64,000 nt of DNA, taken from contig JAAYBI010000015.1 of the NCBI GenBank assembly GCA_012718915.1, forward strand, positions 1 through 64,000. Direction: 5' to 3'. Numbering within the stretch: position 1 is the stretch's first letter; each line of letters opens with the position of its first letter. The notes below the pieces were generated by a model. The model made no database searches and was not told the DNA's origin. It saw only the letters and a list, made by a program, of their open reading frames with translations. A program made the translations under genes and the position numbers. This DNA comes from Clostridiaceae bacterium. GTDB taxonomy: Bacteria; Bacillota; Clostridia; Saccharofermentanales; Saccharofermentanaceae. Below are positions 34,989-43,349 of the stretch, piece by piece.

Positions 34989-35861
34989 GTGGAGACAAGG
35001 CAGGACCGATATTCGGGTGCTAAAGAGAAGAAAATTCAACAACTCAAGCAATTGATCGACGAGTCGAGTCAGATTGTTTTTTTGGGTGGTGCCGGTGTAT
35101 CGACTGAGAGTGGAATACCTGATTTCCGGAGCGGAGAGGGCATTTTTAATCAAGATAGCGGTCTTGAATATCGGCCGGTAGATATTATCAGCCATTCTTT
35201 TTTTATAGAGCATCCGGACGTATTTTTTGACTTTTATAAGAAAAAACTCTGTTATCCTAAAGCAAAGCCGAACCGCGCTCACAAGGCATTAGTACGACTT
35301 GAGAAGACGGGCAAACTGCGTTCGATCATTACTCAGAATGTTGACAATCTGCACCAGAGCGCCGGAAGCCTCAAGACAATAGAACTTCATGGATCTGTAT
35401 ATCGAAATTATTGTCTCTCTTGTGGTGCCAAGTATGATTTGTCCTTCGTGTTGGAGTCCGAAGGTATTCCGAAGTGTACTGCTTGCGGCGGAATGGTTCG
35501 TCCGGATATTGTTTTATACGAAGAACATTTGAACCATGCGAACATTGACCGAGCCGTCGCTGATATTGAGAAAGCCGACTTATTAATCATCGGAGGGACA
35601 TCCCTTACGGTATATCCCGCAGCGACGTTTGCTCAATTTTTACCGCATGACCGGGTTGTCATCATTAATAAGAGTTCTACGTATTTGGACCTGCAGGCCA
35701 TGTTAACCATTCACGACAGTATCGGCTCGGTATTGGATGCCTCAATACCAAAGAAAAAACGCCAAAAATCATCTGCTGATACTATCCCGAATCCGATTTC
35801 GGATAGTTCTTCTGAGGCTTCGGACGAAGACAATAATTTAATTGAAGGAGAGACCACTTGA
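34989..35861 (+). CDS. Sir2-family NAD-dependent protein deacylase
   Basis: Removes acetyl or other acyl groups from protein lysines using NAD, releasing nicotinamide. NAD-binding motifs GGAGVSTESGIPDFRS (33-48) and TQNVDNLH (115-122) are intact. The catalytic histidine is H134 (ELHGS), and the structural zinc is held by C142, C145, C163 and C166. Length is 290 residues, with about 40 extra C-terminal residues that are lysine-rich then acidic and serine-rich, probably disordered. GTG at 34989 follows GGAGG by ten bases. The stop overlaps the TTG start of the MutS-like gene (TTGA), so translation is coupled. Confidence 0.93.
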   Translation: METRQDRYSGAKEKKIQQLKQLIDESSQIVFLGGAGVSTESGIPDFRSGEGIFNQDSGLEYRPVDIISHSFFIEHPDVFFDFYKKKLCYPKAKPNRAHKALVRLEKTGKLRSIITQNVDNLHQSAGSLKTIELHGSVYRNYCLSCGAKYDLSFVLESEGIPKCTACGGMVRPDIVLYEEHLNHANIDRAVADIEKADLLIIGGTSLTVYPAATFAQFLPHDRVVIINKSSTYLDLQAMLTIHDSIGSVLDASIPKKKRQKSSADTIPNPISDSSSEASDEDNNLIEGETT

Positions 35862-37708
35862 TTCAATCAAATGCTTCTCGCGACGAGTTCATAAGAGAAC
35901 GCGAGGACGCGCTTCAGAAAGAATATAAGCAGTTAAGCGTTGTTTTTGATCGGTTGTCTAACGTTCGGCTATTCTTATTCGTTACGATTCTCGTATTAGT
36001 TGCCGCATATTTTTTTGCCGGTCGACAGTCGATATTTCTGATTCTCTCCGGTTTGCTCTTTTGTGCATTTCTAGTCGTAGTCATGAGTCATCTGCAAGTT
36101 TCTCGCAAACTTAAACATAGTATGACTTTATTGGAAATTCACTCAAGATACAAAGCCAGGGTGGTTCATCAATTTGAGAATTTACCGGATGACGGTGCAG
36201 ATTTTTTTGCCGAAGATCACGATTACGCTTCTGATTTGGATTTGTTTGGTCATGGCTCGCTGTTTCATTTACTCTCAGTCGCCCAGACGGATTACGGCCG
36301 TATGGCCTTGCGCGACTATTTATCACCCCTGGAACCTCAGAAACCAGATTTGAAAACAATCACTTCTCGCCAACAGTCGGTTAATGAGCTGTCTCAAGAT
36401 TTTGAGACCGTTCAGACTTTTGAAGCGCTCGGTAGCAAAGCTTTTAAAACGATACGCTCGGCAAAGTCATTTGTTGAATATGCTTCTTACAATGAAGCAA
36501 ATACATATATTCTTCCTAAGAGTAAATTATTCATCAATTTTGCGATTTCATCGCTTATGATCGTCTCTGCGATAATCTCTTTTCTTTCTCCTGTGAATAT
36601 TCTTTATGTGTCGTTTTCTCTGCTTCTGGTGCAACTTGTTCTTACAGCGATCAACTACTCAAGGTTTAAGAACGCCTTTTCCTCAATAACCGGATTGCAT
36701 CCGAAGTTTTTTGCGTATCATTCGCTTTTTGAACATGTCGAAAAACTTGATGTTCAGTCAGAGTATTTGAAAACTTTACAGTCGCAGTTAATGGCTTCGG
36801 ATCAGCATGCTGCTGCTTCAGATGAATTGTCGCGTCTGCATAATATCTGTCTCTTCATTCAAGCGAGAAGTCAGCCGTTACTTTTTCTGATTCTTAATTC
36901 TTTCTTTTTATACGATTATTATTGCTACTATCATCTCCAAAAATGGGTTGAAGATTCGGGCCCGCGTTTTCTCAGGAATTTGGAATGTCTTGGCGAGTGG
37001 GAAGCATTAATGAGCCTGTCGATGATGCGATTGATTTATCCTGAATTTCCGATGCCGACAATATTGAATGCAGATCAGCATAATGACAATAGTAAGCCTT
37101 TGTTTTCTGCGAAAAATATGGGGCATCCTTTGATTCCGGTCATCAAGCAAGTGAGGAATGATTTTAGTTTGCCCGGCGGTATTGCGATTATTACCGGATC
37201 TAACATGTCCGGAAAAACAACGCTGTTGCGCACGGTTGGAATTAATGCCGTGCTTGCCTATGCCGGAACCGTTTGTTGTGCAGATCATCTCGAATTATCG
37301 ATCATGCACATTATGACTTCAATGAGAATTGCGGATAATTTGGAATCCGGCCTTTCGACTTTCTATGCAGAACTTGTTCGCATTGAGCGAATTATCCGAT
37401 TTTCGAAAAATAGCATCCCTTTATTGTTTTTGATTGACGAGATTTTTCGTGGAACGAATTCTCGCGACCGAACGGACGGCGCACAAATTGTGCTGAATAA
37501 TCTTAATAGACATTGGATTACCGGATTAATGTCAACACATGACTATCAATTGTGTGAATTGAATCGAGATGGAGATTTACCGATTCGTTTTTATCATTTT
37601 TCCGAACGATATGATGATGAGGGAATACGATTTGATTATCTTTTAGCGGAAGGCATTTCAACTTCTGCGAATGCGAAATATTTAATGAAAATGGTGGGTA
37701 TTGAATAG
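35858..37708 (+). CDS. Membrane-associated MutS-family ATPase
   Basis: A 616-residue protein with two N-terminal membrane helices (FLFVTILVLVAAYFF and ILSGLLFCAFLVVVM), probably two more near 210-260 (FAISSLMIVSAIISFLS), and a C-terminal MutS ATPase. Walker A is GSNMSGKTTLL near residue 447, Walker B is LLFLIDEIFRGTNS, and the signature helix carries SGLSTFYAEL. There is no mismatch-recognition domain, so it is not a normal MutS1. Its role is unknown. TTG at 35858 overlaps the sirtuin stop by four bases, with AAGGAGAG upstream, a fixed pairing that suggests a joint function. Confidence 0.85.
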   Translation: MIQSNASRDEFIREREDALQKEYKQLSVVFDRLSNVRLFLFVTILVLVAAYFFAGRQSIFLILSGLLFCAFLVVVMSHLQVSRKLKHSMTLLEIHSRYKARVVHQFENLPDDGADFFAEDHDYASDLDLFGHGSLFHLLSVAQTDYGRMALRDYLSPLEPQKPDLKTITSRQQSVNELSQDFETVQTFEALGSKAFKTIRSAKSFVEYASYNEANTYILPKSKLFINFAISSLMIVSAIISFLSPVNILYVSFSLLLVQLVLTAINYSRFKNAFSSITGLHPKFFAYHSLFEHVEKLDVQSEYLKTLQSQLMASDQHAAASDELSRLHNICLFIQARSQPLLFLILNSFFLYDYYCYYHLQKWVEDSGPRFLRNLECLGEWEALMSLSMMRLIYPEFPMPTILNADQHNDNSKPLFSAKNMGHPLIPVIKQVRNDFSLPGGIAIITGSNMSGKTTLLRTVGINAVLAYAGTVCCADHLELSIMHIMTSMRIADNLESGLSTFYAELVRIERIIRFSKNSIPLLFLIDEIFRGTNSRDRTDGAQIVLNNLNRHWITGLMSTHDYQLCELNRDGDLPIRFYHFSERYDDEGIRFDYLLAEGISTSANAKYLMKMVGIE

Positions 37709-39156: not shown

Positions 39157-40953
39157 ATGAAAAATAGATTAACAGAACTATTATCGAGCAATAAGCGAGT
39201 TCTTGTGGATTACTCAGCCATGATTATCATGGCTGAAATGCAAGAACTTCATTTCTTCACGGAACAGCTTATCGATCATCAGGTGGAGCTGATTCTTCCT
39301 GCGTTTTTTCGTTTTCAGCATGAGAGTGTATTCCAGACAGCTGAACAAGAAGGCAAATCGATTTTTGTCGCTGTCCGGGACTGTTTGGCTCGAGTAGAAA
39401 AGGCCGAATTACTGGTCTGGACGAAGCATCTGTCAGCCTACACTTTTTTGTCTGAATTCGCGTCAGATTCGTCGAATCTATTTATTGTCGGGAAAAAATC
39501 TTTTGTTTTGGAGCGCGTTCGAGACCGGAATATTTCCGGTCAGATGCCGGTATTTATTATCTCTAAGACATTTTTCAAAATGTATACGAACCTATCGGTT
39601 TGTCTTGAAGAAGAGGCTCCATATTCGATTCACAAAGTATCCGGATCAGATGAATATCTCGATGTTGAAATTCATTGCAATGTCGGTGATACCGTATACG
39701 ATGATGAGGGACAACCGGTGCTTCTGGCTTCGAAGATTAGTACCGGTGCGGAAGGTATAGTTTTTCGCACGGCAGACCCGTGCTATGTTGCAAAGGTTTA
39801 TCACAAGGCGGTCATTACGCCGTTAAGATGGCGAAAACTCCTTCGGATGAGGCAAGCTCTAATTCGCGCCAAGGGCATTTCATGGCCCTGCAAACTACTT
39901 TATACTTTCAACAAAGTACCTGTAGGATTTACTATGCCTACTGCGGAGGGCTGTACTCTGGGTTCGGCTTTCGATGGGCCGGATGCGGTAATTTCTTATT
40001 TCCCGGATTGGAAGCGAATTGATGTAGTGAATACGTCGATCAGCATCCTTCAGAAAATTATATACTTGCATCTGCACAATGTTTTAATCGGCGATATTCA
40101 GTTAAAGAACATGATGATTAAGGATGCAACGAATGTTTTCGTCATTGATATGGATAGTGTTCAGTTTGAAGATATGCCTTGCCCGGTTGGTACTGAAGAC
40201 TATACACCACCGGAATTATGGGATTATTCATTTTCGGCTATTTTGCGCGAGCCTGTGCACGAAGACTATTCTTGCGGTATATTGATTTTCTCTTTGCTTT
40301 TCTGCGGACAGCACCCTTATGCTCAGCGTATGGGCCGTGAAACACTTCGTGAGGAAATGTTGGCGCGTGCCTTTCCTTATCGTATGACAAACTCAGAAGA
40401 CTCGATGGTGCCGCTTGGCGGTTATGATAAGATCTGGGAAGCTTTGCCTGTTCGGTTGAGAATGATGTTTGTTAATGCCTTTTCCAGTGGCGTTCGATAT
40501 GAACCGGCTGAATGGTACGACGCGCTTCTCGATTATAAAAATCAACTTCAAAAGCATGCGTTTCAAGATGAACAATATTACGAACTGTTTCCGTTCACTG
40601 ATATCTCTCGGGTCGAGGTTGCGGAGCATAAAATCGGATTTAAGAAATCTATTCGTGAAGCAATCATCCATAAACCGGAAGATTCTGCGAGTGGTAATTC
40701 ATCTAACACAGGATTGTCTTCACAGAGAATCAAACGAGATTATAAAGGCTCTGAAGACAAAATATTTGTGCCACTGGTAAAACATGATCCGATACCGACG
40801 AATACGACTCCGAAATCGAAAGAACCGGATATCAATCTCAGTTCGGATTCCTTAGATGTCAAAGAGTTCCTTTTTCGGCCGTTGACAATTGTATTGCTTT
40901 CCGCATTCGTATTGTTAGTGATATTATTATTTGTAGTTGCTAATTTATTCTGA
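39157..40953 (+). CDS. PIN-like domain / protein kinase fusion with C-terminal membrane anchor
   Basis: A 598-residue protein. Residues ~1-150 look like a PIN-type fold (KRVLVDYSAMI, then SNLFIVGKKSFVLERV), though not all four acidic residues of an active nuclease can be placed. Residues ~165-480 are a Ser/Thr kinase-like domain: glycine loop STGAEGIVF (196-203), K213 (VAKVY), catalytic D313 in IGDIQLKN, and D331 in the DMDS version of DFG. IDxDS is typical of kinases paired with TerY vWA proteins. A basic, disordered linker leads to one C-terminal helix (about 575-598), which would leave the enzyme in the cytosol. vWA and PP2C genes follow, as in the TerY-P triad. Confidence 0.8.
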   Translation: MKNRLTELLSSNKRVLVDYSAMIIMAEMQELHFFTEQLIDHQVELILPAFFRFQHESVFQTAEQEGKSIFVAVRDCLARVEKAELLVWTKHLSAYTFLSEFASDSSNLFIVGKKSFVLERVRDRNISGQMPVFIISKTFFKMYTNLSVCLEEEAPYSIHKVSGSDEYLDVEIHCNVGDTVYDDEGQPVLLASKISTGAEGIVFRTADPCYVAKVYHKAVITPLRWRKLLRMRQALIRAKGISWPCKLLYTFNKVPVGFTMPTAEGCTLGSAFDGPDAVISYFPDWKRIDVVNTSISILQKIIYLHLHNVLIGDIQLKNMMIKDATNVFVIDMDSVQFEDMPCPVGTEDYTPPELWDYSFSAILREPVHEDYSCGILIFSLLFCGQHPYAQRMGRETLREEMLARAFPYRMTNSEDSMVPLGGYDKIWEALPVRLRMMFVNAFSSGVRYEPAEWYDALLDYKNQLQKHAFQDEQYYELFPFTDISRVEVAEHKIGFKKSIREAIIHKPEDSASGNSSNTGLSSQRIKRDYKGSEDKIFVPLVKHDPIPTNTTPKSKEPDINLSSDSLDVKEFLFRPLTIVLLSAFVLLVILLFVVANLF

Positions 40954-40970
40954 CCTTATAGGAGGGTAAA

Positions 40971-41708
40971 ATGACAAAGAAGTCGACACAAATCGATGCT
41001 TCTGATTTTGGTAAAAGCACTCGCCGCCGCTTACCGATTTGCTTTTGTTTGGATGTGAGTGGCTCGATGGCGGGTAATCCGATTCGTCAACTCAATGAAG
41101 GTTTGCAGGGATTCTTCTCTTCTATTCGAGAGAACGAGGAGACTCGAGCCGCTGCAGACATTTGCATTGTGACTTTTGGCGGAACGGTTGATATTTTCTT
41201 GCCATTTGGCAGGCTTAGCAAAGAGACTTCGGTTCCCCAGATTCAAGCTACGACTAGCTTGACACCAATCGGAGAGGGGATACTCACGGCTCTAGAGTTG
41301 TTAACTGCCAGAAAAGAGGGCTATAAAGAGCTTGGCATTAAGTATTATCAACCTTGGCTTGTCGTTATTACGGATGGAGCGCCTCAAGGCGAAAGTGCAA
41401 TAGAGAATATGGAAAAGGCTATTGCGACTACCAACGAGCTTGAATCCTCCGGACGTTTGGTCGTATTTAATATCGGTGTCGGAAACGGTGTTGATTTCAC
41501 GCTTCTTAAGCGACTATCGATTAAAAGACCGGAACCCATTTGTATTGATTCGGCGCAATTTTCGAAATTATTTGAATTTTTGGGCTCAAGTAGCTCCTCG
41601 ATTGTATCGAGCGGCATGAAAGATGATGCGCTATACTCTTTGGACGATCCGGAAAAAAAGAAATCTGTTGCGATGGATGAATTTTTTAAGTACTTGGAAG
41701 AGGAGTAA
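40971..41708 (+). CDS. vWA domain protein, TerY-like
   Basis: A 245-residue soluble protein made almost wholly of one von Willebrand A domain. The metal-binding MIDAS is complete: D28-x-S30-x-S32 (DVSGS), T98 (LTPIGEG) and D135 (ITDGAPQGE). This short cytosolic form matches TerY of the tellurite-resistance type systems. An AGGAGG site precedes the ATG, 17 bases after the kinase stop. In the TerY-P triad the vWA protein is thought to act with kinase and phosphatase as a metal-dependent switch or scaffold; which state it senses is not known. Confidence 0.87.
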   Translation: MTKKSTQIDASDFGKSTRRRLPICFCLDVSGSMAGNPIRQLNEGLQGFFSSIRENEETRAAADICIVTFGGTVDIFLPFGRLSKETSVPQIQATTSLTPIGEGILTALELLTARKEGYKELGIKYYQPWLVVITDGAPQGESAIENMEKAIATTNELESSGRLVVFNIGVGNGVDFTLLKRLSIKRPEPICIDSAQFSKLFEFLGSSSSSIVSSGMKDDALYSLDDPEKKKSVAMDEFFKYLEEE

Positions 41709-41714
41709 TGCGGC

Positions 41715-42872
41715 ATGTTTTTGAAACCGGAACTGACTTGTCTGTCGTTAACAGGCAGAAAGCATACGGAAAAAAACATGCCCAACGAAGACGCATGTTT
41801 CACGATGTCAGAAAACAACGTCCACGTCATTTGCATTTCAGACGGTGCTGGCGGAAGTTTCTATACGCATGCGGGAATTGGATCTGTAACGGCTGTTCAA
41901 ACCATCGCAAAACTAATGACGAAGCATTTTGATGCTTTCTTTATGGATGTTCGTGAAAATGTCGTTAGAAGTATTATCGTAACGGCTATTCAATCAGAAT
42001 TGGCAATCAAGGCCAAAGAACACCATCTTAAATCTATTGATAAGATGGCTGCAACATTTATGTTTTGTGCGGTTAAGGATACTAGGGTTATTTTCGGTCA
42101 TATCGGTGATGGTCTGATTGCTCGAGTTACGTCTTCCGGAGTGGTGCCCGTTACTTTGCCGCAAAATGGAGAAGATGCTTCGAGTACGTATTTCGTCACT
42201 TTCCCTGACGCTCAGGATTATCTGCGAATCGTTCGAACGACAACCGATGACGCCCATGCGTTTGTCTTGATGACGGATGGGATTTCTGAATCCGTATTCG
42301 ATTCATCGACTTATCACGTCTTGCCTGTAGTTGCACGTCTCGCTGAGTTTGGAGCTCCTAATGAGGTGGATCGATATTCAAAACTCGAATCAGCGATAGG
42401 AGAACACATTATTCAAAGGTCCCCTCTATCTGACGACGCGACGATTGGCATAATGTATTTTTCGGGGACCCCTGCACCGGATTTTGATTCTTTACCCAAG
42501 GAAAAACCAGTTCCGCAAATTAATTTTTCGGATCTGATGAAAAATGTTCAGATGGAAATTTTGCCTCGTGTCAAATTGGCTCGAGAGTTATTCAGGAAAG
42601 CCAGAGAAGAGCAACCAAGTGATACTCAATCGGATACAGTCAGTCTCACATCCGAGACGACTGCAAGTGGTCAATTAATCGAAGAAATAAAGGATCCTTC
42701 TCCGGCAAGAGAAGAAGTCGATGAAAGCGTTGCAGATCATCTCATCGATACCGTTGCCACAAAAGAAAAATATAACAAGAGATTTAAGTCCGGCAAAAGA
42801 GTATACTTATTTTGTGTACTCGGTATATTATTGGTCTCTGTGACAATTGCTCTGTTTTTTTATTATAGATAG
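41715..42872 (+). CDS. PP2C-type protein phosphatase with C-terminal membrane anchor
   Basis: A 385-residue Mn/Mg-dependent Ser/Thr phosphatase. PP2C motifs are in order: NEDA (24-27), ISDGAGG (41-47), GHIGDGLIA, LMTDGISES and SDDATIGI. After the catalytic domain (to about 250) comes an acidic, probably disordered linker. One hydrophobic helix ends the protein (VYLFCVLGILLVSVTIALFF). Its topology thus mirrors the upstream kinase: catalytic part in the cytosol, tail in the membrane. It starts 6 bases after the vWA stop and should reverse the kinase reaction. Confidence 0.88.
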   Translation: MFLKPELTCLSLTGRKHTEKNMPNEDACFTMSENNVHVICISDGAGGSFYTHAGIGSVTAVQTIAKLMTKHFDAFFMDVRENVVRSIIVTAIQSELAIKAKEHHLKSIDKMAATFMFCAVKDTRVIFGHIGDGLIARVTSSGVVPVTLPQNGEDASSTYFVTFPDAQDYLRIVRTTTDDAHAFVLMTDGISESVFDSSTYHVLPVVARLAEFGAPNEVDRYSKLESAIGEHIIQRSPLSDDATIGIMYFSGTPAPDFDSLPKEKPVPQINFSDLMKNVQMEILPRVKLARELFRKAREEQPSDTQSDTVSLTSETTASGQLIEEIKDPSPAREEVDESVADHLIDTVATKEKYNKRFKSGKRVYLFCVLGILLVSVTIALFFYYR

Positions 42873-42885
42873 ATAGGAGTATGAT

Positions 42886-43230
42886 ATGCCAAACAAAAAA
42901 CGAAAATACGATTTTGATTCCGACGTAAAGGTACCGGACATTGAGGAGATATCTCGCATTGCGAAGGATTTCTCGGATCCCACCATTTCTAAAGGAAATA
43001 TAAAAAACACCGATCCTTTGTCCAAGCGTGGACAGGTTGCAAAACTCGACACAAAATTGACTGAAGCTCAGAAACAAATGCAACTATTGGCGCGTGAAGT
43101 TATCAAGGAAGAGAAAAATAAAGCAAAAGACGAAGCTGAGGTCGTTGAAGTTGCGCCCACGGATTCAGATGAGGCGACGACTGTCGAGTCCGAAGAATCT
43201 GATGTAGCAGATCAATCAGAAGACAACTGA
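42886..43230 (+). CDS. Small charged protein at the end of the kinase/vWA/PP2C operon
   Basis: A 114-residue protein with no recognised domain. It has a basic start (MPNKKRKYDF), a middle with a likely helix (LDTKLTEAQKQMQLLAREVI), and a strongly acidic, Ser/Thr-rich end. It lies 13 bases after the phosphatase gene, with AGGAG upstream, so it is part of the operon. Given its position and many Ser/Thr residues it could be a substrate or adaptor of the kinase. That is inference only. Confidence 0.6.
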   Translation: MPNKKRKYDFDSDVKVPDIEEISRIAKDFSDPTISKGNIKNTDPLSKRGQVAKLDTKLTEAQKQMQLLAREVIKEEKNKAKDEAEVVEVAPTDSDEATTVESEESDVADQSEDN

Positions 43231-43287
43231 TTTCTCATCGTTGATTCGATTTTTTCGTAATCTAAATATTTTATCGAATGCCATCAC

Positions 43288-43318
43288 AAAAAACGACCGG
43301 AGTTGCCGGTCGTTTTTT
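43288..43318. terminator. Bidirectional terminator between the kinase operon and mraY-like gene
   Basis: AAAAAACGACCGG (43288-43300) and CCGGTCGTTTTTT (43306-43318) are a perfect 13-bp inverted repeat with a 5-base loop. T-tracts on both strands serve the convergent genes on either side. Confidence 0.95.
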
Positions 43319-43349
43319 GATAGTCATATGAATCAGAAATTCATATGTT

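Follow-up and report, generated by a model that had tools for sequence, protein, structure and literature searches.

A probable membrane phospho-switch of the TerY-P/YegI type, with a PIN-like kinase N-terminus, in the Saccharofermentans/Mageeibacillus family

Described triads and the window operon

TerY-P triads, which unite a vWA protein, a PP2C phosphatase and a Ser/Thr kinase (STK), go back to Anantharaman, Iyer and Aravind (2012), as described in PMC11090510; the triad is hypothesised there to sense metal. Their kinases typically carry a zinc ribbon or OB fold at the C-terminus and lie beside ter or restriction genes; ter clusters and defence loci are the main places from which the triads have been described. 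To our knowledge, neither an input nor a substrate has been identified for any of them. Here we describe a four-gene operon in a 64,000-nucleotide stretch of DNA from a Clostridiaceae bacterium (contig JAAYBI010000015.1, positions 1 to 64,000; hereafter the window), encoding a kinase, a vWA protein, a PP2C phosphatase and a small charged protein. We interpret this operon as a chromosomal, vertically inherited membrane phospho-switch of the TerY-P/YegI type, derived from a PIN-kinase triad that is elsewhere scattered and mobile, and assign this interpretation a probability of roughly 60%. Its features are as follows.

39157..40953, forward strand: kinase gene; PIN-like/YegI-type Ser/Thr kinase of 598 aa with a predicted C-terminal membrane anchor
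39190..39612, forward strand: PIN-like domain (residues about 12-152), D18 retained, remaining PIN acids mostly lost
39688..40554, forward strand: kinase domain (residues about 178-466), with K213, GDIQLKN containing D313/N318, IDMDS containing D331/D333, and PCPVGTE
40879..40947, forward strand: predicted kinase C-terminal membrane helix (residues 575-597), a helix in the AlphaFold2 (AF2) model with a predicted local distance difference test (pLDDT) score of 95-97 over the block
40971..41708, forward strand: vWA gene; one-domain protein of 245 aa with a complete metal-ion-dependent adhesion site (MIDAS), a TerY-like homologue of YegL
41715..42872, forward strand: PP2C gene; phosphatase of 385 aa with a predicted C-terminal transmembrane helix at about residues 363-383
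42886..43230, forward strand: fourth gene; small charged protein of 114 aa with a conserved N-terminal motif
43287..43319, no strand assigned: rho-independent terminator, a 14-bp perfect inverted repeat (fold z -5.9)

The original prediction, made from the letters alone, had placed four genes in a row here, taken the first three for a kinase, a MIDAS vWA protein and a PP2C, and called them a TerY-P-like triad. The open reading frames lie exactly where it had put them, and Pfam profiles match Pkinase (8.6e-8, best stretch residues 292-403), VWA (4.7e-13) and PP2C_2 (1.5e-35), with no credible Pfam match for the fourth protein or for kinase residues 1-158. Kinase residues K213, D313, N318, D331 and D333 are invariant in an alignment of 61 relatives, and MIDAS residues D28/S30/S32/T98/D135 in 80/80. 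The PP2C metal acids D26, D43, D132 and D188 are invariant in 77/77 relatives; D240 and D241 are so in 76/77, the remaining sequence having a gap. The kinase model reaches a pLDDT of 84.5, and its kinase domain is matched to protein kinases by Foldseek (E 9e-10).

The kinase is homologous to Escherichia coli YegI (BLASTP 28% identity, 1e-19; hhalign with the family alignment 99.5% probability and E 8.5e-23 across 291 columns), the vWA protein to YegL (37% identity, 4e-33) and the phosphatase to PphC (26% identity, 3e-13). The triad is therefore of the TerY-P/YegI type, an identity within the YegI-YegL-PphC family that these sequence comparisons make near certain. YegI is membrane-bound and autophosphorylating and is dephosphorylated by PphC, according to PMC13232886, and kinases fused to transmembrane segments beside PP2C and vWA genes had been noted earlier (PMC7159879).

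The E. coli YegL-PphC(YegK)-YegI set is likewise a stand-alone triad of homologous vWA, PP2C and kinase genes, and its kinase sits at the inner membrane, as is predicted for the window kinase. The two arrangements differ in several respects: (i) the E. coli order is vWA-PP2C-kinase and the window order kinase-vWA-PP2C; (ii) YegI has no PIN domain and carries a helix-hairpin-helix region and internal hydrophobic segments, where the window kinase has a PIN-like N-terminus and a predicted tail anchor; (iii) PphC (253 aa) ends at the phosphatase domain without the hydrophobic tail of the window PP2C; and (iv) the E. coli triad has no fourth gene. Relative to TerY-P triads the window shares the module of TerY-like vWA, PP2C and STK, and is set apart by the PIN-like kinase N-terminus, the C-terminal membrane anchor and a fixed housekeeping locus. 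PASTA-type PrkC/PrpC pairs also join a membrane Ser/Thr kinase to an adjacent PP2C, but use another kinase subfamily and have no vWA protein.

A conserved chromosomal locus

To survey the distribution, 75 genomes of the window's Saccharofermentans/Mageeibacillus family (hereafter the family) were sampled, together with 73 genomes from the other families of the order; relatives in genome contigs escaped a single-sequence scan and were found by an alignment-based search. The kinase with its N-terminal domain occurs in 74/75 family genomes, in single copy each, and in 0/73 of the others; in 380 further genomes of the class, the family form of the N-terminal domain was not detected. Named carriers are Saccharofermentans, Mageeibacillus and Clostridiales/Ruminococcaceae assemblies. 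A search of phage and viral contigs returned no useful relatives.

The neighbourhood conservation on which the original prediction had staked its case is borne out: the kinase-vWA-PP2C order is retained in 29/29 of the first loci beyond the window and, as far as contigs allow, in 80 named loci. Among the 81 named loci including the window, 80 have the vWA gene and 77 the PP2C gene, and in three of the four loci lacking PP2C the sequence stops at or near its expected position. The fourth, L094, has kinase and vWA genes and no detected PP2C though its contig continues; a genuine loss of the gene or a disrupted reading frame is possible. Among the three proteins, conservation is highest in vWA (63-93% identity with the window copy in the 29-locus set). 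Against the nearest relative (locus L034), purifying selection is evident, with a dN/dS of about 0.05 for the kinase (dS near saturation) and 0.12 for PP2C. From its sequence context the operon is a fixed chromosomal locus rather than an accessory island.

Gaps between the genes are short (17 bp kinase-vWA, 6 bp vWA-PP2C, 13 bp PP2C-fourth gene). The operon end and a convergent Glycos_transf_4 (MraY/WecA-type) gene use the strong terminator jointly; its stem-loop was seen by folding (-21.5 kcal/mol, z -5.9), having not been picked up by a promoter and terminator scan, in which no clear excess over shuffles appeared. Across the family, the operon is often preceded by lysA and by the gene for a membrane protein that contains MutS domain V, and followed by argS. 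That membrane-protein gene (window copy 35858-37708, MutS domain V 2.6e-22) precedes the operon in most loci of the family; lysA, which lies between it and the operon, is absent from the spot in part of the family. Other contigs of the window genome carry two further kinase-PP2C pairs of the ordinary kind.

In the fourth protein the window carries the N-terminal motif KRKYxFxxxVxVPxIEEI...DFS, and the rest of the protein evolves fast. Pattern matching places an open reading frame with this motif ([RK]KYx(F/I/V)...P(D/N)...I..AASDFS) after PP2C in 68/76 testable loci, and reading the sequences raises this to at least 73/76. Past the motif the protein is charged and probably coiled, and in many species closes with an SDEETxDDFSEFL-like end; the window protein has the N-terminal motif only, without this end. 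The gene looks family-specific by sequence, and its product would be the first choice as a putative substrate or adaptor. A SSSSS run in the vWA protein (window 41586-41600, residues 206-210), a possible phosphorylation site, varies hardly at all among 80 relatives; YegL has a Ser-rich end similar to this C-terminal part of the vWA protein.

The PIN-like domain and the C-terminal anchors

The proposal of a PIN-like domain at the kinase N-terminus is borne out by the predicted fold. An AF2 model on a 58-sequence alignment gives this domain a pLDDT of 89.5 and the strand and helix order of PIN. Matches listed at probability 1.00 by Foldseek against the PDB (E at least 2e-3) are titled PIN or, where titles are not telling, are entries that we take to be PIN or PIN-like. 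The link was tested by profile-profile comparison with column shuffles, beyond hhalign runs against single PIN sequences: the family N-terminus and eleven active-looking PIN N-termini score 23.2 over 114 columns, and 200 column shuffles of the same comparison give 11.7 +/- 2.0, none reaching 23.2. In the resulting alignment, invariant D18 falls on the first catalytic PIN Asp. Sequence and model together make PIN ancestry of the domain very probable.

Most of the active site is gone. Of the three to four acids of a PIN nuclease, D18 alone is conserved in the family: its position is D/E in 58/58 sequences, position 56 is Glu in 20/58 (and in the window copy) and Tyr, Gln or Lys in most relatives, and the third-acid position is non-acidic across the family (Asn, Lys, His or others). 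Because the acids other than D18 are mostly gone, a nuclease is unlikely, and from the sequences this activity has probably been lost. D18, S20, K52, H55 and R120 are conserved in the family and, by secondary-structure position, lie around the usual PIN site; the economical reading of this set, on sequence and model, is a remodelled binding site.

Both enzymes were also predicted to end in a membrane helix, and computation agrees. In the AF2 model the kinase C-terminus is a low-confidence linker followed by a transmembrane helix, and peak Kyte-Doolittle hydropathy reaches 3.29 in the kinase tail and 2.7 in that of PP2C. The zinc ribbon or OB fold of classical TerY-P kinases was not found on the window kinase by profile search or AF2. 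A transmembrane helix closes 14 of 81 family kinases; 66 others have a short basic-hydrophobic tail instead, of which KKKFFGLF and GLFGKFKKGLFG are examples, and the remaining one is unclear. F and L account for 45% of the final six residues in the short tails, compared with 6% in the linker. In 76/77 relatives PP2C has a transmembrane-like C-terminus, the one exception being a truncated copy. That the kinase helix swaps with a basic-aromatic tail at one position suggests that selection maintains kinase anchoring, and membrane anchoring of both enzymes is strongly indicated by these sequences and models. The distinctive trait, judging from sequence, is the presence of anchors on both enzymes, with the kinase anchor alternating between the two forms.

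Two points once taken as new do not survive as novelties. TerC and TerD, noted as missing nearby, are absent from the entire 2.2-Mb assembly (96% complete); stand-alone triads without adjacent ter genes are, however, frequent, plasmids included, and a membrane kinase accompanied by PP2C was already on record in PMC13232886 and PMC7159879. Neither the ter-gene absence nor the membrane kinase is thus novel, since ter-less triads are common and cases of membrane kinase, PP2C and vWA are known.

Scattered PIN-kinase loci and competing explanations

Searching with the family kinase leads to YegI-type kinases in other Bacillota that carry an N-terminal PIN_4 domain above the Pfam cut-off. The PIN-kinase, vWA, PP2C order recurs on Lysinibacillus plasmid pFN9B, on a conjugative Paenarthrobacter plasmid, in Fusobacterium vincentii and in a few scattered Bacillota; such loci thus span Bacillota, Fusobacteriota and Actinomycetota, some of them plasmid-borne. 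The PIN fusion is therefore real yet not unique, because these YegI-type kinases have an apparently intact PIN active site and the same order with vWA and PP2C. Loci with a PIN-kinase followed by vWA and PP2C lie at:

L173, 8740-13740
L175, 6288-10206
L174, 9540-13645
L176, 6533-11682
L204, 6361-9707

These loci share with the window the gene order and the PCPVGT motif, and hold its nearest kinases among the sets sampled. They differ in that the PIN acids are intact (D 10/11, E 11/11, D 10/11, D 8/11), that most kinases end in zinc ribbons or treble clefs and mostly lack a transmembrane anchor, that PP2C has no transmembrane segment in those inspected, and that the fourth gene is absent or unrelated (J-domain-like in Lysinibacillus). 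The kinases of L175 and L179 end in basic-aromatic tails. In one case (L187/L204) an active-looking PIN, a kinase and a C-terminal hydrophobic (transmembrane) helix precede vWA and PP2C; by sequence, this would be a natural intermediate. The active-looking PIN fused to a YegI-type kinase with vWA and PP2C is probably an undescribed TerY-P subtype on sequence grounds: no description was found in the literature searched, a search that the key 2012 TerY-P paper lay outside.

Several side observations attach to these loci. L181 (5105-9017) encodes a TIR-Sel1 protein (PF13676, 1.6e-10), then a divergent PIN-like kinase and a vWA protein without an adjacent PP2C. In the Lysinibacillus triad a weak J domain (PF00226, E 9e-4) forms the end of the fourth gene (L173, 13084-13740), and in E. 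coli the Hsp70-family gene yegD adjoins yegI; a chaperone link may therefore recur. Several PIN-kinases have, directly upstream, a gene whose helix-turn-helix (HTH) product contains a second PIN-like domain, this one degenerate; the PIN-kinase system may include such a PIN pair:

L176, 5529-6518
L174, 8587-9495
L180, 4872-5798
L204, 5480-6343

The kinase tree, rebuilt after removal of very long branches that had disturbed its first version, supports the window family (100/99), the PIN-kinases (95/89) and the YegI types (100/100) as clades; by path length the window family is nearer the PIN-kinases than the YegI types in the sets sampled. Several points weigh against our interpretation. The tree is effectively unrooted with long branches, and the mobile-to-fixed direction is uncertain because it depends on the rooting. 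Foldseek TM-scores of the N-terminal domain are below 0.5 by query length, with generic Rossmann-like proteins close behind. The hhalign link to active PINs, though significant against shuffles, is weak on an absolute scale (probability 7%, E 0.005). Finally, tails of the KKKFFGLF type are only moderately amphipathic, and such short tails might be protein-binding instead of membrane-binding. On balance, we lean towards descent from a mobile ancestor.

Were the operon still an anti-phage system acting at the membrane, it would follow the TerY-P triads that protect Pseudomonas aeruginosa PAO1 against phage (PMC10889362) and the STK-OB forms that serve as stand-alone defence (PMC11090510), as well as its PIN-kinase relatives on a plasmid, on a conjugative plasmid and beside restriction-modification-type genes (L176, gene identities read from sequence). 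Against this stand its single copy at one locus in 74/75 family genomes among housekeeping genes (lysA, MraY/WecA-type, argS), unlike a defence island, the mostly lost nuclease residues, and a comparison of the window proteins with PADLOC that gave no strong match and weak kinase-family similarity only; we regard present-day defence as unlikely. A Ter-type pathway for metal or tellurite stress draws on the kinase-vWA-PP2C triad itself, the hypothesised metal sensor (PMC11090510), but is set aside as very improbable given an assembly without TerC or TerD and the commonness of ter-less stand-alone triads.

Two further explanations concern the N-terminal domain. An RNase toggled by the kinase/phosphatase pair would fit the PIN fold, the always acidic D18, E56 in the window copy and the full acid sets of the scattered relatives; we reject it as improbable, as E56 is replaced in most relatives, Lys, Asn or His occupies the third-acid position, and a conserved K52/H55/R120 set stands in place of the lost acids. 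Convergence of some other Rossmann-like domain on a PIN-like form would explain the low TM-scores and the methyltransferases and E1-type folds among the next matches. This too appears improbable: all listed probability-1.00 PDB matches are PIN or PIN-like, homologous kinases carry a recognisable PIN_4 at the same position, and the profile comparison exceeds every shuffle.

Under the phospho-switch interpretation, a mobile PIN-kinase TerY-P module would have become fixed in the Saccharofermentans/Mageeibacillus family. C-terminal anchors would hold kinase and PP2C at the cytosolic face of the membrane, and the vWA protein, via Mg2+ at its MIDAS, would probably bridge both enzymes and the small charged protein of the fourth gene. 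Most likely, the PIN-like domain would bind a ligand or partner in the former active-site cleft and so gate the kinase, which would autophosphorylate and probably also phosphorylate either the fourth protein or the Ser-rich end of the vWA protein; PP2C would then reset the phosphorylation state. This functional scheme of vWA bridge, PIN-derived sensor and fourth-protein or vWA substrate, as drawn from sequence and models, stands at about even odds.

Ultimately, triads described so far largely in ter clusters and defence loci here gain a conserved fourth gene as an obvious substrate candidate and a nuclease-derived domain that may have turned sensor. The subtype that pairs an active-looking PIN with a YegI-type kinase is directly testable as an anti-phage system. 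Tentatively, a mobile, probably defensive PIN-kinase module may have become near-universal signalling in this family of gut and sludge bacteria, with a non-catalytic D-S-K-H-R sensor, both enzymes anchored and the fourth protein as output. The operon is nearly always present in the family, and a phenotype is therefore expected in uninfected cells.
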